A DNA stretch of 40,485 nt, from assembly GCA_028709305.1 (NCBI GenBank), contig JAQVXE010000009.1, positions 1 to 40,485 of the forward strand, given 5' to 3'. Numbering within the stretch: position 1 is the first letter of the stretch; every line of letters begins with the position of its first letter. Source of the stretch: Bacillota bacterium (GTDB lineage Bacteria; Bacillota; DTU025). Positions 3,047-37,616 of the stretch are shown in pieces. The translations under genes and the position numbers were made by a program. Below the pieces are notes generated by a model. The model ran no database searches. It was not told where the DNA came from and saw only the letters and a list, made by a program, of their open reading frames with translations.

Positions 3047-3075
3047 AGTATAACACAGGCATGGCCCCACGTCAA
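3047..3075 (-). promoter_or_regulatory. infC operon promoter
   Basis: The -35 element is TTGACG (3070-3075) and the -10 element is TATACT (3047-3052), with an exact 17-nt spacer. The TGA inside the -35 element is the stop codon of thrS, so the promoter overlaps the end of the upstream gene. Confidence 0.85.
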
Positions 3076-5000
3076 ACCTCTTCGCAAGACCGGGAATCGA
3101 CTCCGATGCGAAGCATGTTGGCAAAGTCGTCCACCGTCATCGCGCCCTGATCACCGCCCTTGCGGGCTCTGACCGCAACCTGACCTGCCTCCATCTCCCT
3201 GTCGCCAACGACTAGCATGTACGGAACCTTCTGAAGCTGTGCTTCACGTATCTTGTACCCAATCTTCTCATCGCGGGCATCCACTTCCACCCTGAAGCCT
3301 TGCTCGGCAAGGATGCTAGCGACACGCCTTCCATACTCCGCGTGGCGGTCGCCTATGGAAAGGATCTTAGCCTGCACCGGAGCAAGCCAAAGAGGCAGGG
3401 CGCCAGCATACTGCTCAATAAGGCATCCCATGAACCTCTCCATGCTGCCAAGAACCGTTCTGTGTATCATTATTGCCCTGTGTTTTTCCCCATCTTCGCC
3501 GATGTAGTTTACGTCGAATCTTTCGGGCAAGTTGAAGTCGACCTGAATCGTTGGCCCCTGCCAGAGACGGCCGAGAGAGTCCTTGAGCTTGGTGTCAATT
3601 TTGGGGCCGTAGAATACGCCTTCTCCCGGGTCCATGGTATACTCAAGCCCATGATTCTCCAACGCATCTCGGAGAGCCAGTGTCGCACGTTCCCAGTTCT
3701 CGTCTGATCCCACCGACTTTTCCGGCCTGGTTGACAGGAAGAACTGGTATTCCGAGAACCCGAAGCTCTTCAGCATGAACCTGGTAAGGTCTATTACGCC
3801 CACTATCTCGTCACGCAGTTGCTCGGGGGTGCAGAAGATGTGCGCATCATCCTGAGTGAACCCTCTAACCCTGAGCAGCCCATGAAGGGCTCCGGATCGT
3901 TCGTATCTGTATACGGTTCCAAGCTCGCAGTAGCGGATCGGCATATCCCGGTAGCTTCGAGTGGCAGTCTTGTATACCAATATATGCCCCGGACAATTCA
4001 TGGGCTTGAGAACATATTCCTTCTCGTCAATGGGCAAGTAGTACATGTTCTCCTTGTAGAATTCGTTGTGCCCTGAAATAGTCCAAAGTGTTGACTCAGC
4101 AATATGCGGAGTAATAACAGGTTTGTACCCCCGCGCGATATGCTCGCGCATCCAGAAGTCCTCTATGGAGTAGCGAATAGCGGCGCCATGAGGGTGATAG
4201 AAGATCAGGCCCGCACCTGCCTCCTCATGAACGCTGAATATATCAAGATCCCGTCCGAGATGCCTGTGGTCTCTTTTGGCCGCCTCCTCCAGAACACGCA
4301 GATGCTCATCGAGCTCCTTCTTTGTGTGATAGGCAGTTCCGTATATTCGGGACAGCATGGGCCTATTTTCGTCCCCTCGCCAATACGCGCCGGCCACGTT
4401 CAGGAGCTTGAAGGCTCCAATCATCCCTGTTCTCGGCAGATGGGGCCCTCGACACATGTCAGCAAACTCGCCCTGTCGATAAAAACTGACCTTGTTCTCG
4501 TCAAGTTCATTGAGGAGCTCGATCTTGTATGTCTCGTCTCCGCGCTTAAGCATAGCCAACGCCTCATCCCAGGTTGCCTCTTCGCGAACTATGGGGAGAT
4601 CCTCAGCGATGATCCTTCCCATCTCTGCCTCAATCTTCTCCAAGTCGTCAGGGGTGAAGGCATGATCGATATCGAAATCATAGTAGAATCCGTTCTCAAT
4701 CGTGGGCCCTATTGCTAGCTTGGCAGAGGGGAACAGCCTCTTCACAGCCTGGGCCATCACATGGCTGGCCGAATGCCGCATTGCATCGAGCCCTTCCTCA
4801 GATGTCGCGTCCAATATGGTCACTCGACAATCCTCAGTAATAGGGAATGAAAGGTCAACAGCAGTGTCGTCCACAAGACCGACAACTGCCTGTGCAGCCA
4901 GTCTCCTGCCTATGCGAGCCGCCAGCTCGCCCACAGTAGTCCCTGAAGGAATCTCGACAATACTGCCGTCCGGCAAAGTCACCTTAACGTTTTCCACCAC
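3072..5000 (-). CDS. thrS: Threonyl-tRNA synthetase
   Basis: This cytoplasmic class II synthetase of 642 residues charges tRNA-Thr. In order it shows a TGS domain (about 1-62), an editing domain with the HxxxH pair at H76/H80 and a later CRGPH motif, and a catalytic core. The core has the NCPGH zinc/active-site loop, motif 2 around RYCELGTVYRYE, and motif 3 around GSMERFMGCLIEQY. The C-terminal part is the anticodon-binding domain. Length and domain order are those of a full-length bacterial ThrRS. It is transcribed alone behind a T-box and is followed without a gap by the infC promoter. Both tRNA-Thr isoacceptors encoded in this window are its substrates. Confidence 0.98.
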   Translation of the reverse strand: MVENVKVTLPDGSIVEIPSGTTVGELAARIGRRLAAQAVVGLVDDTAVDLSFPITEDCRVTILDATSEEGLDAMRHSASHVMAQAVKRLFPSAKLAIGPTIENGFYYDFDIDHAFTPDDLEKIEAEMGRIIAEDLPIVREEATWDEALAMLKRGDETYKIELLNELDENKVSFYRQGEFADMCRGPHLPRTGMIGAFKLLNVAGAYWRGDENRPMLSRIYGTAYHTKKELDEHLRVLEEAAKRDHRHLGRDLDIFSVHEEAGAGLIFYHPHGAAIRYSIEDFWMREHIARGYKPVITPHIAESTLWTISGHNEFYKENMYYLPIDEKEYVLKPMNCPGHILVYKTATRSYRDMPIRYCELGTVYRYERSGALHGLLRVRGFTQDDAHIFCTPEQLRDEIVGVIDLTRFMLKSFGFSEYQFFLSTRPEKSVGSDENWERATLALRDALENHGLEYTMDPGEGVFYGPKIDTKLKDSLGRLWQGPTIQVDFNLPERFDVNYIGEDGEKHRAIMIHRTVLGSMERFMGCLIEQYAGALPLWLAPVQAKILSIGDRHAEYGRRVASILAEQGFRVEVDARDEKIGYKIREAQLQKVPYMLVVGDREMEAGQVAVRARKGGDQGAMTVDDFANMLRIGVDSRSCEEV

Positions 5001-5087: not shown

Positions 5088-5134
5088 GATAAAGAAACCC
5101 CCGTCCCTAGCTGATCCAACATCGGGACGGGGGT
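5088..5134 (-). terminator. T-box terminator hairpin
   Basis: An 11-bp stem (5097-5107 with 5124-5134) has a 16-nt loop and is followed on the minus strand by TTTCTTTAT. It competes with the T-box antiterminator and controls readthrough into thrS. Confidence 0.9.
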
Positions 5135-5356
5135 CAACCCGCGGTTCCACCCGGTTTGGCGCACACAGCGCCCTCTCTCAGGCCGCATAACGGGGGCCAG
5201 CCGTACCGGCATATTCCCGCGCAGGCGGTTTCAGCCGAAAGCTCAGAGGTGGTTTTCAGCAATCTACACCCCGGCAGGCTCCCACCACTCGGCCCGCCGT
5301 CTCTGAGGGTTCGCAGAGCTTACTCGTCCTCATCATCGCCGTCTATCTGCTTGATT
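5088..5356 (-). promoter_or_regulatory. Threonine T-box riboswitch of thrS
   Basis: The leader shows the T-box landmarks in order on the minus strand. Stem I has a GACGAGTAAG element and a GAGTGGTGGGAGCC element, and the specifier segment reads GAAA-ACC-ACC. The antiterminator box GGGTGGAACCGCGG follows (5139-5152), then a strong terminator. The specifier ACC (5251-5253) encodes Thr and would pair with anticodon GGU. The UGGA of the box pairs with the U73-CCA end of both tRNA-Thr genes in this window. Uncharged tRNA-Thr would stabilise the antiterminator and switch thrS on. Confidence 0.93.
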
Positions 5357-6939: not shown

Positions 6940-7016
6940 TGGTGGGGTGCAGTGGAATTGAACCACTGGCCTCAACGATGTCAACGTTGCGCTCTAGCCA
7001 ACTGAGCTAGCACCCC
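6940..7016 (-). tRNA. tRNA-Val (anticodon GAC)
   Basis: The acceptor is GGGGTGC and the anticodon loop TTGACAT (anticodon GAC) sits on a CAACG/CGTTG stem. The discriminator is A and CCA is encoded at 6940-6942. It is the last gene of tRNA operon 2. Confidence 0.95.
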
Positions 7017-7031
7017 AAGCCTGATCTAATC

Positions 7032-7106
7032 TGGAGGCGACACCCGGATTCGAACCGGGGAATAGCGGTTTTGCAGACCGCTGCCTTACCACTTGGCTAT
7101 GTCGCC
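7032..7106 (-). tRNA. tRNA-Cys (anticodon GCA)
   Basis: The acceptor begins GGCGACA and the anticodon loop is CTGCAAA (anticodon GCA). CCA is encoded at 7032-7034. It is the only cysteine tRNA in the window. Confidence 0.95.
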
Positions 7107-7144
7107 GGCAAATGACACGGCCCGTGGGCCGTGAGTAAATTCTA

Positions 7145-7219
7145 TGGAGCGGAAGACGGGATTCGAACCCGCGACCCTCGCCTTGGCAAGGCGATGCTCT
7201 ACCGCTGAGCCACTTCCGC
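7145..7219 (-). tRNA. tRNA-Gly (anticodon GCC)
   Basis: The acceptor is GCGGAAG and the anticodon loop is TTGCCAA (anticodon GCC, reading GGC and GGT). CCA is encoded at 7145-7147. It complements the TCC isoacceptor of operon 1. Confidence 0.95.
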
Positions 7220-7233
7220 AGTCTTCACAATAG

Positions 7234-7309
7234 TGGTGCCGAGGGGCAGAATCGAACTGCCGACACGGGAATTTTCAGTCCCCTGCTCTACCGACTGAGC
7301 TACCTCGGC
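7234..7309 (-). tRNA. tRNA-Phe (anticodon GAA)
   Basis: The acceptor is GCCGAGG and the anticodon loop is CTGAAAA (anticodon GAA). The discriminator is A and CCA is encoded at 7234-7236. Confidence 0.95.
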
Positions 7310-7329
7310 TTGCTATGGTTCGTAAAAAA

Positions 7330-7406
7330 TGGCGGAGGCGACGGGACTCGAACCCGCGATCTCCTGCGTGACAGGCAGGCATGTTCAACCGCTACACTAC
7401 GCCTCC
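7330..7406 (-). tRNA. tRNA-Asp (anticodon GTC)
   Basis: The acceptor is GGAGGCG and the anticodon loop is CTGTCAC (anticodon GTC). The discriminator is G, as expected for Asp, and CCA is encoded at 7330-7332. Confidence 0.95.
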
Positions 7407-7432
7407 GCACAACCTAAAACCTTTTTTCAGAA

Positions 7433-7508
7433 TGGTGGGCGAAACAGGGCTCGAACCTGTGACCCCCTGCGTGTAAGGCAGGTGCTCTCCCAACTGAGCT
7501 ATTCGCCC
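7433..7508 (-). tRNA. tRNA-Val (anticodon TAC)
   Basis: The acceptor is GGGCGAA and the anticodon loop is CTTACAC (anticodon TAC). CCA is encoded at 7433-7435. It is the first gene of tRNA operon 2, 21 nt after the -10 element. Confidence 0.95.
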
Positions 7509-28353: not shown

Positions 28354-28950
28354 CTACAGTCCAACAAACCTGGCAACATCAAATCCCGAAAACCCAAGAA
28401 ACGCCATGGCCAGCAGCCCGGTTGTCACAAGGGCTATGGGAAATCCCTGCATGGCTCTGGGAACAGGCGCAAGTCTTTGCCTCTCCCTGATGGCCGCAAA
28501 GAGAATGATCGCAAGGGCCCATCCGAGACCACCGGCCGCGCCGCTCACTGCAGACTCCAACAGGGTGTAGTTGGCCTGGTAGTTGATTATTGCCACACCC
28601 AACACCGCGCAGTTAGTCGTGATGAGCGGAAGGTATATTCCAAGAGCCCGGTACAAAGACGGGCTTGATTTTCTTATGACCATCTCTATCAGCTGGACAA
28701 GGGCCGCAATTACCAGTATGAATGAGACTGTTTGCAGATAAGCCATGTTGAGCGGGTTCAGTATGAAGTTCTGAACCAGCCATGTAATGGCTGATGCTAC
28801 AGTCATGACAAATACAACAGCAAGGCTCATGCCGGTCGCAGTCTCCACCTGTTGGGATACGCCAATAAACGGACATGTTCCAAGTATCCTGGATAGCATG
28901 AAGTTGTTGACCAAAGCCTGGCTGAACAGAATTACCAACAGCTGACGCAC
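28354..28950 (-). CDS. rnfA: Rnf complex membrane subunit RnfA
   Basis: This 198-residue integral membrane protein has about six spans. The first half contains NFMLSRILGTCPFIGVS, including the cysteine that in Rnf/Nqr helps hold an iron centre within the membrane together with RnfE. It pairs with RnfE as an inverted-topology homologue. It lies 13 nt after rnfE. Confidence 0.97.
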   Translation of the reverse strand: MRQLLVILFSQALVNNFMLSRILGTCPFIGVSQQVETATGMSLAVVFVMTVASAITWLVQNFILNPLNMAYLQTVSFILVIAALVQLIEMVIRKSSPSLYRALGIYLPLITTNCAVLGVAIINYQANYTLLESAVSGAAGGLGWALAIILFAAIRERQRLAPVPRAMQGFPIALVTTGLLAMAFLGFSGFDVARFVGL

Positions 28951-30177: not shown

Positions 30178-31153
30178 GGTCGGTCACCTCCCCAAATCTC
30201 TTCGGGCGCGTGAGCCTGTCAATAAGCGGCACTGCGGAGTTCATGATCAATATGGAGTAGCAGACACCCTCAGGATATCCGCCGAACATCCTTATCAATG
30301 CCGTCAAGATCCCACATCCAATCCCGAAGATCACTTGGCCCTTGGGATTCATCGGAGATGTCACGTAGTCAGTGGCCATGAAGAAAGCTCCAAGAATCAA
30401 CCCGCCCGAAAGAACGTGGAAGAGGGGGTCTTGACCATACAGCCCCGTTATTACAGCCACCGTCACAACATAGGTAACAGGTATCCTCAGAGATATGTGT
30501 TCTCTCCAGAGGAGATAGAGAGCACCTATGAGCAATGCCAATGCAGATGTTTCGCCCAGCGACCCGGCTATGTTCCCCATGAAGAGCGGGCCATAGAACT
30601 TAGTCATCGCAGCTCCGCCTATGTCTCCCATCTTCCATAGAGTGAGGGGCGTCGCGGTGCTCATAGCATCGAACCCCCTCGCAGCCCAAAGGGCCCCCTC
30701 TGCAGACGCCGGCCAAATGTAACCGGCCGTAGCCAAGGCAGGCCATGCAGCGGTCGCAAAAGCGCGTCCTGCTAGAGCAGGGTTGAATACGTTGTGACCA
30801 AGCCCTCCGAAGAGTAGCTTGACTACGCCTATCGCAAAAACTCCTGCTATGATCGGTATCCACAGAGGCACATGCGGTGGAAGAACCATCGCAATCAGGA
30901 GGCCTGTTACTGCGGCGCTCCAGTCGCCTATGGTGACCGGCTTATTCGCAATCTTCTCAAAGATGTATTCAGCGCCCACTGCCGCAGCCACGCTGCAGAC
31001 AATTGAAACCGCCGCGCGAAGGCCGAAGAAGTACACCCCGGAGATCGCTGCCGGCAGCAAGGCAATAACAACATCTCTCATTATTACAGGCGTGCTAGCT
31101 CCGGACCTTATGTGCGGTGCCGGTGCTACTTGCAGTTTGGTGTTTGCCATCAC
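30170..31153 (-). CDS. rnfD: Rnf complex membrane flavoprotein RnfD
   Basis: This 327-residue protein has up to ten spans and covalent FMN. The motif STATPLT (165-171) holds the likely flavinylated threonine near 168. GGLGHNVFNPALAGRAF and MATDYVTSPMNPKGQ are family signatures. It overlaps rnfC by four bases. With RnfA, E and G it forms the ion-translocating part. Whether Na+ or H+ is pumped cannot be told from sequence by eye. Confidence 0.97.
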   Translation of the reverse strand: MMANTKLQVAPAPHIRSGASTPVIMRDVVIALLPAAISGVYFFGLRAAVSIVCSVAAAVGAEYIFEKIANKPVTIGDWSAAVTGLLIAMVLPPHVPLWIPIIAGVFAIGVVKLLFGGLGHNVFNPALAGRAFATAAWPALATAGYIWPASAEGALWAARGFDAMSTATPLTLWKMGDIGGAAMTKFYGPLFMGNIAGSLGETSALALLIGALYLLWREHISLRIPVTYVVTVAVITGLYGQDPLFHVLSGGLILGAFFMATDYVTSPMNPKGQVIFGIGCGILTALIRMFGGYPEGVCYSILIMNSAVPLIDRLTRPKRFGEVTDRA

Positions 31154-32490
31154 TTACCCCCCCGTTCCCTGGCGGCACGGCGCCTAGCCGATATCTCGAA
31201 CTTGGCGCGCTTAATCGCCTGGACCAAGTTGCGCCGGGATGGGCATACATAGGTGCACACACCGCACTCAATACAATCCATTGCATGGTAAGCCTCGGCC
31301 TCATCCCACAGGCCTGCCCCACTCCACTGATGTAGAAAGGCCGGCTCCAGCCGCATAGGACACGCATCAACACATTGGCCACACTTGATGCACGGCATTT
31401 CCTTAAAGGCCACCGACTCCTCCTGGCTCATTACCAGGATACCGGAGGTGCCTTTGCCCGTAGGCACATCGGCCGAGGGCACAGCCATACCCATCATCGG
31501 GCCTCCAAAGATTATCTTGCCAGGTTCGCCCACAAAGCCCCCACACGCTTCTATCAATTCACTTGCTGGAGTTCCTATCTTGGCGATCAGGTTCATCGGT
31601 GTGGCCACAGCCGACCCGGTCACAGTGACGACTCTTTCAATTAGGGGCAGCCCGCGGTCGAAACGATCGGAGACTGCTGCCGCAGTGCCGACATTGCTCA
31701 CAACCACTCCCACCGAAAAAGGCAGACGTCCCGGGGGAACCTCCCGTCCTAGCACGGACTTGATAAGGTGCTTCTCGGACCCTTGAGGATACCTGGTCTT
31801 AACAGGTACAACCTCTACTCCGGCGGCACTCACTTCAGCGTCCCTCATGGCATTGATCGCATCGGGCTTGTTGTCCTCGATGCCTATGCGCGTGCGCATA
31901 ACACTAATAGCCCTCATGAGAATCTGCGCTCCGCGGACAATATCTCGGGGACGCTCTACCATAAGCCGGTGATCGGCTGTAAGGTATGGCTCACACTCCG
32001 CCCCGTTAAGGAGGAGCGTGTCGACTTCCACCTTTGGCGGCAACGAGAGTTTTATGTGCGTCGGGAACTCCGCGCCCCCCATGCCGACTATGCCAGCCTC
32101 CCGGATTATCTCAATGAGCTTTTCGGGCGGCTGGGAAAAAACATTGTCGACAGGCACACACGACTCGTCCAACACATCTTCGCCGTCAGGTTCAATGAAT
32201 ATGGCCTGGTCTTGAGCGCCGAAGGCAGTTCGCACTAGGCCTATGGAGGCAACCTTGCCGGAAACCGGGGAATGAGAAGGCACTCCCCACTTCGCCTCAG
32301 TATCGGCAATCTTCTGCCCCATTCGAACATGGTCTCCTCTGGCGACCGTAGGTGTCAGAGGACAATTAGAGCCCTGATGAAGCAGTACTACAACCTGAGA
32401 CGGCCGCCGGGCGACGACAGTGCGCAATGCGGCTGTTCTCTCTTTGTTCTCCGGAGGATGAACTCCCCCTCGGAACGATCCCTTGGGCAT
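31150..32490 (-). CDS. rnfC: Rnf complex NADH-binding subunit RnfC
   Basis: RnfC exchanges electrons with NAD+/NADH in the cytoplasm. The 446-residue protein begins with the FRGGVHPPENK element, has a Gly-rich nucleotide/FMN-binding part around GIVGMGGAEFPTHIKL, an SLBB-like middle, and two 4Fe-4S motifs (C367, C370, C373, C377 and C406, C409, C412, C416). The ATG at 32490 has a perfect AAGGAG site 8 nt upstream. The longer frame to 32622 runs through the structured leader and is rejected. It is first in rnfCDGEAB. Confidence 0.97.
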   Translation of the reverse strand: MPKGSFRGGVHPPENKERTAALRTVVARRPSQVVVLLHQGSNCPLTPTVARGDHVRMGQKIADTEAKWGVPSHSPVSGKVASIGLVRTAFGAQDQAIFIEPDGEDVLDESCVPVDNVFSQPPEKLIEIIREAGIVGMGGAEFPTHIKLSLPPKVEVDTLLLNGAECEPYLTADHRLMVERPRDIVRGAQILMRAISVMRTRIGIEDNKPDAINAMRDAEVSAAGVEVVPVKTRYPQGSEKHLIKSVLGREVPPGRLPFSVGVVVSNVGTAAAVSDRFDRGLPLIERVVTVTGSAVATPMNLIAKIGTPASELIEACGGFVGEPGKIIFGGPMMGMAVPSADVPTGKGTSGILVMSQEESVAFKEMPCIKCGQCVDACPMRLEPAFLHQWSGAGLWDEAEAYHAMDCIECGVCTYVCPSRRNLVQAIKRAKFEISARRRAARERGGK

Positions 32491-32649
32491 GCACCTCACT
32501 CCTTTTGCTTCTACAAACCTGCCTGTGGAGCCTAAACATAAGACAATGAAAAGCCTCGTGCGAGGCACAAAATAATAAAGCCCGCCCCGTGAACAGACCA
32601 GCTTTACGCATCCAAGCAGCACTTTGGCCCAGACGCCTAAAGCCGGTCT
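32491..32649 (-). promoter_or_regulatory. Structured leader of the rnf operon
   Basis: Just after the predicted -10 element there is a 55-nt element (32595-32649). A 12-bp stem (32595-32606 with 32638-32649, one G:U) continues past a single G:G mismatch into 5 more pairs (608-612 with 632-636 of 32xxx) and closes a 19-nt loop. About 30 nt later a small hairpin (32553-32557 with 32562-32566) is followed by TTTTCATTGTC, like a weak terminator. Together they look like a regulatory leader. I do not recognise a known riboswitch class. Confidence 0.5.
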
Positions 32650-32650
32650 A

Positions 32651-32679
32651 ATTGTACACCACGGGACAAGCTAGTGCAA
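32651..32679 (-). promoter_or_regulatory. rnf operon promoter
   Basis: There is a TTGCAC -35 element (32674-32679), a 17-nt spacer and a TACAAT -10 element (32651-32656). It gives rnfCDGEAB its own start downstream of the hydrogenase operon. The predicted start would fall inside the outer part of the long leader stem. Confidence 0.7.
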
Positions 32680-32701: not shown

Positions 32702-34432
32702 TCAGGATTTCTTTGCCGTGTAGTGCGTATGAAGCAGTTCGTGTGAGCGTTCCGAGAGAGGCCGCCCCAGGAACTCCTCATATAGCTTCAGTACTGCAGG
32801 GTTAGTATGAGATGTCCTCAAGGGCATGTCCCTGTCCACCTCATAGAGGGCTTCCCCGCGGTCAGCACGGCTTGACATCACCGTTCCTATCGGCTGCCCG
32901 CCTCCGCCGACACATCCACCTGGACAACACATTATCTCCACAAAATGCCACGGGGCGTCACCCGCACTGATCCTCTCCATTACCTTTCTCGCATTCGACA
33001 GCCCATGGGCGACTGCAGCCCTGATAGTAGCTCCTTCGATTTCGACTGCAGCCTCCTTGATGCCGTCCAGACCCCTTACATCATGAAACTCCATCCCATC
33101 CTCAGGAAGCTCCGTCCCAGTCACCACTGCATACACAGTGCGAAGGGCGGCCTCCATTACCCCACCCGTAGCGCCGAATATGGCCGCGGCTCCCGTAGAG
33201 ATCCCAAGGGGATCATCGTAGTCCTCTTCAGACAAAGACTCGAAGTCTATGCCAACCTCACGAATCATCCTGCCCAGTTCTCGTGTGGTAAGGACCACGT
33301 CCACATCCTGGAACCCGCTGGATCTCATCTCTGGCCTCACGCACTCGTACTTCTTAGCTGTGCAAGGCATTATCGAGACAACGAAGAGCCTACCCGGGTC
33401 GATTTCGGCATGCTCAGCATAGTAGGTTTTTGCCACAGCTCCAAACATCTGCTGGGGAGATTTGCACGTCGATACATGCGGAAGCAGATCGGGATAGAAA
33501 CGCTCTATGAAGTTGATCCAGCCCGGACTGCAGGAGGTCAGGAGCGGCAGCGGAGCGTCGCCTTTCTCTATTCGCTCGAGAAGTTCATGACCTTCTTCCA
33601 TAATCGTAAGGTCAGCAGTGAAGTCAGTATCGAACACTCGGTCAAATCCTAGCCTACGCAGTGCGGCCACGAGCTTGCCGGTGACTACGGTGCCAGCAGG
33701 CAGCCCCAATTCCTCGCCGAGCGATGTCCTTATGGCCGGGGCGGTTTGGACTATGACATGGATTTCGGGATCGGCCAGCGCGTCCCATACTCTTCTCGTG
33801 TCATCGCGCTCGGCTATGGCCCCTGTCGGGCAGGCCAACGTGCATTGTCCGCAGAAGACGCAGACGACCGAATTGAGATCATCACCGAAGGCAGGAAGCA
33901 CAACAGAGTCGAATCCACGGTTTGCAGTGGACAGCACGGCCACGCCTTGAACATCCTCACAAGCTTCAATGCACCGCCTGCAGTTTATGCACTTGTCAGC
34001 GTCGCGCACAAGAGATGGAGACGACTCATCCTTGGGCAGCTCCCTCAAAACCCGTTCGAACCTGATCTCCCTTATTCCAAAGTCGGCCGCCAGCTGCTGT
34101 AATTCGCACTTGAGGTTGCGCTGGCAAGAAAGGCAGTCGTCAGGGTGGTGGGCGAGCAGCAATTCAACTGCCATGCGCCTTGCCTTTCTCACCTTCGGAG
34201 TATTGGTGCGCACTACCATACCCTGGCTTACAGGATAAGAGCAGGCTGGCTGCAAAGTGTTCTGGCCCTCTATTTCCACCACACACACCCGGCAGACCGA
34301 CGGCTTGCCCAGGTCTTCATGCCAACAGAGGGTGGGAATCCTTATCCCTACGGTGCGCGCAGCGTCAAGGATAGTCATCCCGAGCGATGCGCAAACAGAC
34401 TTGCCATCGATAGTCAGAGCAATGTCAGACAT
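32702..34432 (-). CDS. hndD: [FeFe] hydrogenase catalytic subunit (HndD/HydA type)
   Basis: This subunit makes or consumes H2 at an H-cluster. The 576-residue protein has an N-terminal 2Fe-2S domain (C36, C47, C50, C64), a His-Cys3 4Fe-4S site (H96, C100, C103, C109) and two 4Fe-4S ferredoxin motifs (C148-C158 and C191-C201). The H-cluster domain follows with TSCSPGW (299-305), MPCTAKKYE (355-363) and a third motif including C503 and C507. The C-terminal 50-residue segment is the small-subunit-like tail. With hndA and hndC it forms an NAD(P)-linked, probably electron-bifurcating enzyme. The ATG at 34432 has AGGAGG 10 nt upstream. Confidence 0.96.
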   Translation of the reverse strand: MSDIALTIDGKSVCASLGMTILDAARTVGIRIPTLCWHEDLGKPSVCRVCVVEIEGQNTLQPACSYPVSQGMVVRTNTPKVRKARRMAVELLLAHHPDDCLSCQRNLKCELQQLAADFGIREIRFERVLRELPKDESSPSLVRDADKCINCRRCIEACEDVQGVAVLSTANRGFDSVVLPAFGDDLNSVVCVFCGQCTLACPTGAIAERDDTRRVWDALADPEIHVIVQTAPAIRTSLGEELGLPAGTVVTGKLVAALRRLGFDRVFDTDFTADLTIMEEGHELLERIEKGDAPLPLLTSCSPGWINFIERFYPDLLPHVSTCKSPQQMFGAVAKTYYAEHAEIDPGRLFVVSIMPCTAKKYECVRPEMRSSGFQDVDVVLTTRELGRMIREVGIDFESLSEEDYDDPLGISTGAAAIFGATGGVMEAALRTVYAVVTGTELPEDGMEFHDVRGLDGIKEAAVEIEGATIRAAVAHGLSNARKVMERISAGDAPWHFVEIMCCPGGCVGGGGQPIGTVMSSRADRGEALYEVDRDMPLRTSHTNPAVLKLYEEFLGRPLSERSHELLHTHYTAKKS

Positions 34433-34449
34433 TACTCGCCCGCCTCCTC

Positions 34450-36123
34450 TCACTTGATCCCGCCGCCCGTCTGCGACGTTGCACAGACCGCTTCATCCGC
34501 GCCTGTAGGGAGTCGCCTGCATACGCCGGCGGGACAACACCCTTCAAGGTGGGCTTCGATCTCATCTGCATAATGGTCCATAATGGTGAAAAGTGGAACT
34601 GCAACGGATTGGCCCAGAGCACACAAGGAAGAAGACTGCATAACCTCCGCAAGCTCCCTTGCAAGCTTCAGGTCGTCCTCTGTTGCAGCAAGCTCCCGCG
34701 TCTTGCGGAAGATATCGCATAACCGCCGCGTTCCCTCTCTGCAAGGCGTGCACTGCCCGCAGGATTCATGTTCGAAGAAGCGCAAGAGCGTACAGGCTAT
34801 GTCAACTATGCAATGGCTATCGTCGATTATCAGGAGCGCTCCTGAACCAAGCGCAGACCCCGCCTTCTGGAGGTTCTCGTAGTCCATTGGAATGTCGAGA
34901 TGCGCCTCTGACAGACAGCCGCCTGCAGTCCCGCCCGTCTGGGCCATCTTAAAGCGGCGCCCCCCGGGAATGCCGCCCCCGACACCATAAATGACCTCCC
35001 GGAGAGTGATTCCCATGGGAACTTCTATCAATCCCTTGTTGTTCACATCGCCAGTGAGGGTGTACACCTTCGTTCCAGGGCTCGTAGGAGTTCCAAACTG
35101 CCTGAACCAGTCGGCTCCACTACGGATTATCGGCGGGACGTTCGCAATAGTCTCCACATTGTTTACGACAGTAGGCTTGCCCCATAGGCCGCACGTTCCC
35201 GGATAAGGAGGCTTCTGCCTGGGTTCACCGCGCTTGCCCTCCATCGATTCAATCAGCGCAGTCTCCTCCCCGCACACATACGCTCCGGCCCCCTTCTTTA
35301 CTTCGATATCGAAGTTGAAGCCCGAGCCGAACATGTCAGCCCCCAGGAGTCCGTATTTGCGCGCCTCTTCGATTGCGCGCTCTATGCGCTCTATTGAGAG
35401 ATAATACTCTCCTCGAATGTACACATACCCCATGGAAGCGCCTACTGAGTAGCCCAAGATGACCATCCCTTCGATCACCTTGTGCGGATCCCCTTCGAGT
35501 ATCAGACGGTCTTTGAATGTTCCAGGCTCGCCCTCATCAGCATTGCATACTATGTACTTCTGATCAGCCCCCGCCCGAGCTGTAAACCCAAGTTTCACAC
35601 CAGTCGGGAAAGCGGCTCCCCCACGGCCTCGAAGGCCCGAAGACTTGATGGTTTCGATGACCTCATCTGGCGACATGGATGTGAGAGCCACGCCTGCAGC
35701 ATGGTACCCGTCGCGGCCGATGTACTCTTCAATACTGTCAGGATCGATCAGTCCCACATTCTCGAGGACAATCCTCTCCTGAACCTCGAAGTAATCAGTC
35801 CGCTTGTCGTCGGTCAAAGACACCGAGGGAAGATGCCCGGTATACTCCAAACGTCTGACAGCCCGCCCCTTTAGCAGATGTTCATCTACGATCTCACTCG
35901 CATCACCCACTGTGACGCGGGCATACACAGTCCCTTCAGGGTACACAACAACGATCGGTCCAAGGTCGCACGGACCCAAACATCCTGTCTCAACAACGCG
36001 GACTTCGCGCTCGAGCCCATGCTCCTTGACCGATCGTTCGATTGCGTCACGCACCGCCCGGCAACCAGCGGCAACACATGGGAATCCGCCGCACACCAGG
36101 ACATGCGCTCGGTAGAAAGCCAT
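34450..36123 (-). CDS. hndC: Hydrogenase flavin subunit (HndC/NuoF type), short C-terminus
   Basis: This subunit binds FMN and NAD(P)H and is the proposed bifurcation site. The 557-residue protein has an N-terminal thioredoxin-like 2Fe-2S domain (C11, C16, C48, C52) and the NuoF core. The core has GLRGRGGAAFPTG (163-175) and NADEGEPGTFKDR (194-206), then an SLBB domain and the N3-type 4Fe-4S site (C455, C458, C461, C501). Typical HndC/HydB proteins continue with a C-terminal two-cluster ferredoxin domain. Here the protein stops about 25 residues after CCPAGVC, so that domain is absent. It sits 17 nt before hndD. Confidence 0.95.
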   Translation of the reverse strand: MAFYRAHVLVCGGFPCVAAGCRAVRDAIERSVKEHGLEREVRVVETGCLGPCDLGPIVVVYPEGTVYARVTVGDASEIVDEHLLKGRAVRRLEYTGHLPSVSLTDDKRTDYFEVQERIVLENVGLIDPDSIEEYIGRDGYHAAGVALTSMSPDEVIETIKSSGLRGRGGAAFPTGVKLGFTARAGADQKYIVCNADEGEPGTFKDRLILEGDPHKVIEGMVILGYSVGASMGYVYIRGEYYLSIERIERAIEEARKYGLLGADMFGSGFNFDIEVKKGAGAYVCGEETALIESMEGKRGEPRQKPPYPGTCGLWGKPTVVNNVETIANVPPIIRSGADWFRQFGTPTSPGTKVYTLTGDVNNKGLIEVPMGITLREVIYGVGGGIPGGRRFKMAQTGGTAGGCLSEAHLDIPMDYENLQKAGSALGSGALLIIDDSHCIVDIACTLLRFFEHESCGQCTPCREGTRRLCDIFRKTRELAATEDDLKLARELAEVMQSSSLCALGQSVAVPLFTIMDHYADEIEAHLEGCCPAGVCRRLPTGADEAVCATSQTGGGIK

Positions 36124-37240: not shown

Positions 37241-37288
37241 TGCTCTTAATCCATATTCACCTTCTCATCCCATAACCTGCATAGGAAA

Positions 37289-37316
37289 TCAACCGTGCCG
37301 CAAGCGGCACGGTTGA
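37289..37316 (-). terminator. Terminator between small ORFs and hnd operon
   Basis: A perfect 12-bp stem (37289-37300 with 37305-37316) has a 4-nt loop. On the minus strand it is followed by TTTCCTAT. The stem is very strong and the U-tract short. It lies 20 nt after the first small ORF stop. Confidence 0.75.
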
Positions 37317-37335
37317 CCGTAGAGGCTGCCTTGCG

Positions 37336-37476
37336 CTACCAGCAGAACCTGGGCAAGAATGCTGCCAAGACGATTATGGCGAGCAGGATTAGAAGCATAC
37401 CCCATGATCCAAATCCGAGCCCAATCCCGCCAGGTCCTGGATCCGGAGCAGCCTTGATGACATCACCGATTGTCAT
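37336..37476 (-). CDS. 46-residue single-span membrane protein, YjcZ-like
   Basis: The peptide has a Gly/Pro-rich N-terminal half (GPGGIGLGFGSWG) and one hydrophobic span (MLLILLAIIVLAAFL, about 27-41), ending in PRFCW. A perfect AAGGAGG site stands 8 nt before the ATG, and a strong terminator follows, so it is very likely translated. The layout of a glycine-rich start plus one span with GFG or similar resembles the small YjcZ-type sporulation proteins of Bacillota. The function is unknown. It is the second gene of a pair with the peptide at 37509-37616. Confidence 0.75.
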   Translation of the reverse strand: MTIGDVIKAAPDPGPGGIGLGFGSWGMLLILLAIIVLAAFLPRFCW

Positions 37477-37508
37477 GTGCGTGTCCTCCTTTTGAGTCGT
37501 AGCTTAGA

Positions 37509-37616
37509 TCACCAAGGAAACCAGAAGACTGCGATCACTATTATGCCTAGAAGAATCAACGCCAGGTTCCAGGCGAAGAACCCCCTGAAACCCCCGCCGA
37601 AAACTGCGCTTTCCAC
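37509..37616 (-). CDS. 35-residue single-span membrane protein, YjcZ-like
   Basis: The peptide starts at GTG, with GGGAGG about 10 nt upstream, and reads ESAVFGGGFRGFF followed by a hydrophobic span (LALILLGIIVIAVFWF) and ends PW. Like its neighbour it combines a Gly/Phe-rich N-terminus with one span and a Trp at the very end. The two genes are 32 nt apart and probably cotranscribed. Function unknown. The shared layout suggests a duplicated small membrane protein, perhaps sporulation-related. Confidence 0.7.
   Translation of the reverse strand: MESAVFGGGFRGFFAWNLALILLGIIVIAVFWFPW

Follow-up and report, generated by a model that had tools for sequence, protein, structure and literature searches.

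The hyd-rnf locus

The window (the whole stretch of 40,485 nt analysed here) carries on its minus strand the neighbouring hyd and rnf operons, with a gap of 211 nt between the hydA stop (32702) and the rnfC start (32490). The hyd operon encodes a 2Fe-2S ferredoxin, a NuoE-like protein, a NuoF-like protein and HydA, with hydA as the last gene. In the rnf operon, rnfD, rnfG, rnfE and rnfB were recognised downstream of rnfC, and the RnfC match (Table 1) upholds the identification of the intervening stretch as an rnf leader, made in a preliminary description of this DNA. The same neighbour, hydA, is found directly upstream of rnf in L004, L005/L086, L087, L088 and L091. The ~37 nt up to and including the rnfC start (32490-32527, minus strand) are nearly invariant among three genus members, and AAGGAGTGAG before the rnfC start is retained even in another family (L092-L094). 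The mean pairing of the Shine-Dalgarno sequence ranges from 0.49 to 0.74 across all leaders, with no clear difference among the relatives. Elsewhere, the window contains a T-box leader (5120-5345, minus strand; Rfam RF00230, 104.8 bits) upstream of a 642-aa frame (3072-5000), and 12 tRNA genes in two clusters (68-640 and 6943-7508).

Table 1. Features of the hydA-rnfC junction, with positions in the window
Feature	Position	Strand	Remarks
hydA, NADH-dependent [FeFe] hydrogenase group A6	32702..34453	-	NCBIfam NF040763, E=1e-268
-35 hexamer TTGCAC	32674..32679	-	TTGCRC or TTGCAG, 17-18 nt from -10, in 8/8 family/order rnf leaders
Outer helix, 5' strand AGCUUGUCCCGUGG	32659..32672	-	pairs with 32579-32592; inside promoter spacer
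-10 hexamer TACAAT	32651..32656	-	17-nt spacer (18 in L091); TACAAT or TAAAAT in 8/8
Inner stem, 5' strand UAGACCGGCUUUA	32638..32650	-	pairs with 32594-32606; spans predicted start site
Conserved start GGCTTTAG, family pattern GGNTTTNG	32637..32644	-	6 nt past -10 (5 in L091); 8/8 leaders
Apical stem, 10 bp	32608..32636	-	32627-32636 with 32608-32617; 9-nt loop CAAAGUGCU, 32618-32626
Inner stem, 3' strand UAAAGCUGGUCUG	32594..32606	-	overlaps 5' strand of alternative terminators
Outer helix, 3' strand UCACGGGGCGGGCU	32579..32592	-	stops exactly at U-tract
T1, extended alternative hairpin	32576..32606	-	-12.8 kcal/mol; fold prediction
T1', short terminator-like hairpin, 9 bp	32579..32599	-	-8.2 kcal/mol; followed by TTATTATTTT; found by terminator scan
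U-tract UUAUUAUUUU	32569..32578	-	common to outer helix and shorter terminator-like hairpins
Small GCCUC/GAGGC hairpin, then UUUU	32553..32566	-	intact in L004, damaged in L003
Shine-Dalgarno AGGAG of rnfC	32499..32503	-	inside conserved AAAGGAGTGAGG; sequence and relatives
rnfC, first gene of rnfCDGEAB	31153..32490	-	TIGR01945, E=4e-159

The rnf promoter and its conservation

The pattern TTGC[AG][CG]-N17/18-TA[CA]AAT-N5/6-GGNTTT precedes rnfC in each of the eight family- or order-level genomes that allowed this leader to be examined, whose rnfC is 65-100% identical to that of the window, and is absent from all other rnfC upstream regions compared; shuffled controls gave 0.05 hits per set. In the window the start motif reads GGCTTT. 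Both hexamers are conserved within the 16-18 nt spacing of a sigma-70-type promoter, which is kept at 17-18 nt in the eight genomes. The -10 matches the consensus at 5/6 positions and the -35 at only 3/6, and the latter was missed by a consensus scan. In the window's genome GTGGTGTANAAT occurs once, the combination of -10 and start pattern is likewise unique, and genome-wide pattern searches found no promoters of the same type elsewhere. Being conserved upstream of rnfC and unique in the genome, the promoter thus belongs to rnf. It is still present where rnf lies behind a small YjcZ-like open reading frame instead of hydA (G005, leader L089); in L092-L094, of the same order, rnf lies behind other genes after a short gap, without such a promoter. 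Transcription is predicted to start at G 32644 or 32643, and the rnf transcript would then begin inside the inner stem, likely at G 32644. The hairpin had been described earlier as beginning beside a predicted -10, and TACAAT does directly abut the inner stem.

Architecture of the hairpin

The minus strand from 32672 to 32579 can fold into one interrupted 37-bp hairpin, composed of an outer helix of 14 bp, an inner stem of 13 bp and an apical stem of 10 bp closed by a 9-nt loop. Within it lies an inverted repeat of 18 nt, with arms at 32595-32612 and 32632-32649 that are 83% complementary and 19 nt apart. The 12-bp stem with five further pairs and a 19-nt loop given in the preliminary description is present, but this understates the structure, as the stem runs on to the 9-nt loop and is continued outwards by the 14-bp outer helix. 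As in an intrinsic terminator, a GC-rich stem stands directly before a U-tract (outer helix base at 32579, then UUAUUAUUUU); the U-tract is broken by two A residues, and in L004 it carries one A-to-G change.

The fold is exceptionally stable, with a z-score of -6.55 for 32585-32670 (0/200 dinucleotide shuffles fold as well) and rank 1 among 4040 100-nt segments covering both strands of the window, after GC correction. The full structure reaches -56.8 kcal/mol, versus -8.2 kcal/mol for T1', and shuffling the promoter spacer alone costs ~7-10 kcal/mol (p<0.001, <0.001 and 0.004).

Several other stable folds were noted in the window. The second strongest (35941-36040, minus strand, -51 kcal/mol) lies in the gene for the NuoF-like hydrogenase subunit and has the form CGAACGATCGGTC.../...GGACCGATCGTT; it is possibly an internal regulatory or processing hairpin, or a chance fold. 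A long near-perfect hairpin at 37261-37360 (minus strand), GGTCAACCGTGCCGC TTGC GGCACGGTTGATTT followed by CC, is located 5' of the hyd operon and 3' of small open reading frames whose products end in a hydrophobic stretch of the GFGSWGMLLILLAIIVLAAF type (37350-37610, minus strand; YjcZ-like by eye), and is probably the terminator of these frames. On the plus strand, 28721-28820, opposite the rnfA/rnfE region, gives a fold that is unusually stable for 43% GC.

Pairing kept within the genus

Conservation of the structure was assessed with the window and its same-genus relatives L003 and L004 (rnfC 92% and 87% identical), among which the whole leader aligns without gaps. In the two relatives, 17/20 base-paired cells that differ from the window still pair. 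By helix, and with p-values from a random-substitution null devised in this analysis, pairing is kept in 6/7 changed cells of the outer helix (p=0.008), 8/9 of the apical stem (p=0.001; here one U-A pair has become C-G and one G-U pair U-G) and 3/4 of the inner stem (p=0.14, not significant alone). In a dedicated covariation count, pairing was found in 97.3% of cells, against 34-48% in slid controls; two pairs are changed on both sides, a number equalled by 97/500 shuffles of the three sequences. The check on rnfC leaders proposed in the preliminary description, which would have counted a lack of covariation against a regulatory RNA, thus found the stem kept through substitutions. Together these comparisons support, at the level of three sequences, a hairpin structure conserved in the genus.

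The loop AAAGUGCU is invariant in the three genomes. When 12 genomes of the order were searched with a covariance model for additional copies, only the three rnf leaders were significant (E<1e-39); the other matches were weak, two of them being the opposite strand of the same hairpin. The L003 contig begins ~110 nt ahead of the rnf promoter, and its first part (L003:1-105) is unlike hydA; promoter and hairpin are intact despite this upstream sequence, which could reflect either another rnf neighbour in that genome or a wrong contig end.

Predicted terminator-like hairpins in the rnf transcript

RNA starting at 32644 could form a shortened 5' hairpin together with T1', which contains many G-U pairs and is worth -3.2 kcal/mol in L004, or the alternative T1 (-11.6 to -12.8 kcal/mol), in either case ahead of the U-tract that also follows the outer helix. 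T1 pairs in all three genus members, with 3/3 changed cells kept (p=0.06). The U-tailed hairpin that the preliminary description placed near 32545 was found at 32553-32566, with its stem damaged in one of the two same-genus relatives; T1', absent from that description, is better placed. Fold prediction for the window depends on the start position. With a start at 32648 or further upstream the full inner hairpin is favoured (0.5-2.3 terminator-type pairs), and with a start at 32647 or downstream T1'/T1 are favoured (6.6-10.6 terminator-type pairs); similar flips are predicted for L003 and L004. Starts at least 4 nt upstream of 32644 are thus predicted to hold the 3' arm within the 5' hairpin, so that the terminator is lost.

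Leaders beyond the genus

Outside the genus the leaders cannot be aligned; the promoter and a structured leader are kept, and the stem and loop sequences are unrelated. In most clades the leaders fold better than shuffles; the p-values are <0.004 for the window, 0.003 for L091, 0.010 for L087, 0.017 for L089, 0.067 for L088 and 0.20 for L086. Taking the predicted start, the first 9 nt are predicted to be mostly paired in the leaders of the window, L085, L089 and L091, the 5'-terminal stems of L089 and L091 being unrelated to the window's in sequence; for L086-L088 fold prediction gives no support for a 5'-terminal stem.

An outer helix that includes the promoter spacer was also found in L091, which belongs to another family and has hydA ~20 nt upstream of the promoter (p=0.035). 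This helix differs in sequence from the window's and stands before CUUUGUUC, a U-rich run in which a simple scan called no terminator. No spacer-containing outer helix was found in L087 or L088, where the long hydA-rnf gap holds a separate hairpin, or in L089, whose rnf operon does not follow hydA and has a strong terminator-like hairpin ahead of it. In L086 the spacer has an effect (p=0.004) although no U-tract is present, and in L087, of the same genus, it has none; a single helix of this kind can therefore be a chance product. No U-tailed hairpin was found between promoter and rnfC in L086-L089; the ones detected in L087 and L089 are located ahead of the promoter.

A proposed terminator with a promoter in its stem

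The reading that we favour, with moderate confidence, is that the element is the intrinsic terminator of the hyd operon and that its stem incorporates the rnf promoter. Because the promoter spacer supplies the 5' strand of the outer helix, the full hairpin can form only in RNA begun upstream, in hydA; the outer helix is kept although rnf-initiated RNA lacks this strand, which points to a role in upstream-initiated RNA. The upkeep of this helix, its end at the U-tract and the dependence of the fold on the spacer sequence all fit a hyd terminator with a nested rnf promoter. The 22 nt from the hydA stop to the rnf -35 moreover leave no room for another terminator there.

A polymerase arriving from hydA would produce RNA that includes the promoter spacer and could form the full 14 + 13 + 10 bp hairpin with its base against UUAUUAUUUU, at which hyd transcription would stop or the hyd 3' end would be fixed. 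By contrast, a polymerase that begins at the rnf promoter, with its predicted +1 at G 32644, would produce RNA without the outer strand, able to form only a 5'-terminal hairpin and the weak 9-bp terminator-like hairpin, and a good part of it would run into rnfC. In this way rnf would become independent of hyd read-through within the 211-nt gap, and the rnf mRNA may be protected by its 5'-terminal hairpin. Against this nested arrangement stand the occurrence of the alignable structure in just three genomes, with thin covariation, the two A residues that break the U-tract, the spacer effect of L086 described above, the L091 run in which the simple scan called no terminator, and the L003 upstream sequence, which is not recognisable as hydA (contig end) and yet is followed by an intact outer helix.

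In the frd/ampC pair of Escherichia coli, the promoter lies wholly before the terminator, and both transcripts therefore meet the same hairpin; here, unlike in that pair, the promoter spacer is itself a strand of the outer helix, and only the upstream transcript is predicted to form the full hairpin. The two cases are alike in that the downstream promoter is found where the upstream operon ends, ahead of a U-tract (here promoter 32651-32679, hydA stop 32702 and U-tract 32569-32578), and in that one hairpin, here a putative terminator, would both end the upstream transcript and sit in the downstream leader. The last frd gene contains the ampC promoter, and the frd terminator doubles as attenuator of ampC (PMC6045580, PMC11838884). 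A junction of the ampC type would further have the hairpin attenuate the downstream gene, with regulated antitermination; T1 and T1' are candidates for this role that depend in silico on the start site and are not conserved beyond the genus. The nearest documented case is frd/ampC, the new elements here being a promoter within the predicted base-paired region and a hairpin that would vary with the origin of the RNA. In Burkholderia nlpD1-penA, the upstream terminator acts on the downstream co-transcribed gene and an adjacent promoter bypasses termination (PMC6045580); that promoter arose by mutation in resistant isolates, whereas here the promoter is the operon's conserved one. The parts of the rnf and acetogen literature that we saw report no comparable leader, and a literature search on promoters inside or overlapping terminators, or on start-site control of attenuation, which lay mostly outside subscription journals, returned nothing relevant.

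Alternative explanations

A possible but unlikely alternative is that rnf is controlled by transcription attenuation that depends on the precise 5' end. The initial nucleotides of the rnf RNA would determine whether the 3' arm UAAAGCUGGUCU is held in the 5' hairpin, giving read-through, or is left to pair with GGGCGGGCU(UUA) as T1/T1' ahead of the U-tract, giving termination; the switch would be a shifted start site, extra nucleotides at the 5' end or the binding of a factor. The T1 pairing in the three genus members, the predicted flip of the fold with start position in the window, L003 and L004, and the conservation of GGNTTT at the predicted +1 to +6 of eight leaders are consistent with such a switch. 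Pyrimidine genes under start-site or 5'-end dependent control are known (E. coli pyrC, Bacillus subtilis pyrG), and here, too, a few 5' nucleotides are predicted to be able to decide which hairpin forms; those systems concern different genes, and the effect here is a prediction. However, T1/T1' share sequence with the outer and inner strands, which are themselves conserved, and may have been kept as a side effect of this, T1' is weak, and starts 2-4 nt past the -10 are unusual for a sigma-70-type promoter. Simple nesting, in which hyd stops and rnf passes, was ranked above attenuation because L086-L089 have no comparable U-tailed hairpin between promoter and rnfC.

We consider equally improbable a purely structural element without termination, in which a 5' hairpin protects the rnf mRNA and/or a stem-loop protects processed hyd 3' ends, the U-run being incidental. 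In its favour, the family leaders outfold shuffles in most clades, and the 5' end is predicted to be largely paired in the four leaders named above. 5'-terminal stem-loops of the E. coli ompA type reportedly stabilise mRNA (Emory 1992, listed in PMC6239172); as there, the predicted 5' end here lies in a stem, with unrelated sequence and a stabilising effect that is putative. Selective RNA processing and stabilization in Clostridium cellulolyticum involves very stable intergenic stem-loops among genes of functionally linked complexes (PMC4423207), and processing stem-loops of this kind are the main structural alternative. They are situated within a single operon and for the most part have no U-run, whereas the present hairpin has a U-tract and a conserved promoter. 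The structural explanation leaves unaccounted for an outer strand that lies in the promoter spacer and a helix that ends at the U-tract, and the 5'-terminal stem is unsupported in L086-L088.

The preliminary description had raised the idea that the leader responds to a redox or metabolite signal, and a riboswitch of this kind controlling rnf now appears highly improbable. The leader is structured, has mutually exclusive helices and carries the invariant loop, but such invariance among three close relatives is fairly often expected by chance; the element is a single long hairpin with neither a multi-branch junction nor a conserved pocket, and has no second copy in the 12 genomes of the order. 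Consistent with the earlier statement that no known riboswitch was recognised, the window's leader has no Rfam match at gathering threshold (below it, only implausible animal-miRNA hairpins and one weak atpB match were found). Stem and loop sequences are replaced within the family and conserved in one genus only (three genomes). The lack of loop conservation beyond the genus argues against a metabolite sensor, and the anatomy of the element suggests instead a terminator/promoter nest that it shares with the hyd operon upstream. Just as remote is a reading in which the conserved part is the promoter plus a protein-binding DNA site around -10 to +8, the hairpin being secondary: promoter and GGNTTTNG are the only part conserved over eight genomes and are unique in the genome, but no clear DNA palindrome is found there, and this reading would not explain why the apical and outer pairs are kept within the genus.

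Implications

Hydrogenase and Rnf are two central enzymes balancing ferredoxin and NADH in such anaerobes, and how neighbouring hyd and rnf operons can be expressed independently within ~210 nt is a practical question, to which a nested promoter would be a compact answer. The nested arrangement predicts that one U-tract stops one class of transcript and passes the other, and the frd/ampC case suggests, by analogy, that junctions of this kind can become regulatory points. A further step, in which the terminator discriminates by RNA origin, being complete for hyd read-through and disabled for RNA that begins within it, and is tunable by rnf start shifts of a few nt (conserved GGNUUU), is distinctly doubtful; if true, the choice of start site, and not a ligand, would set the balance between bifurcating hydrogenase and Rnf.
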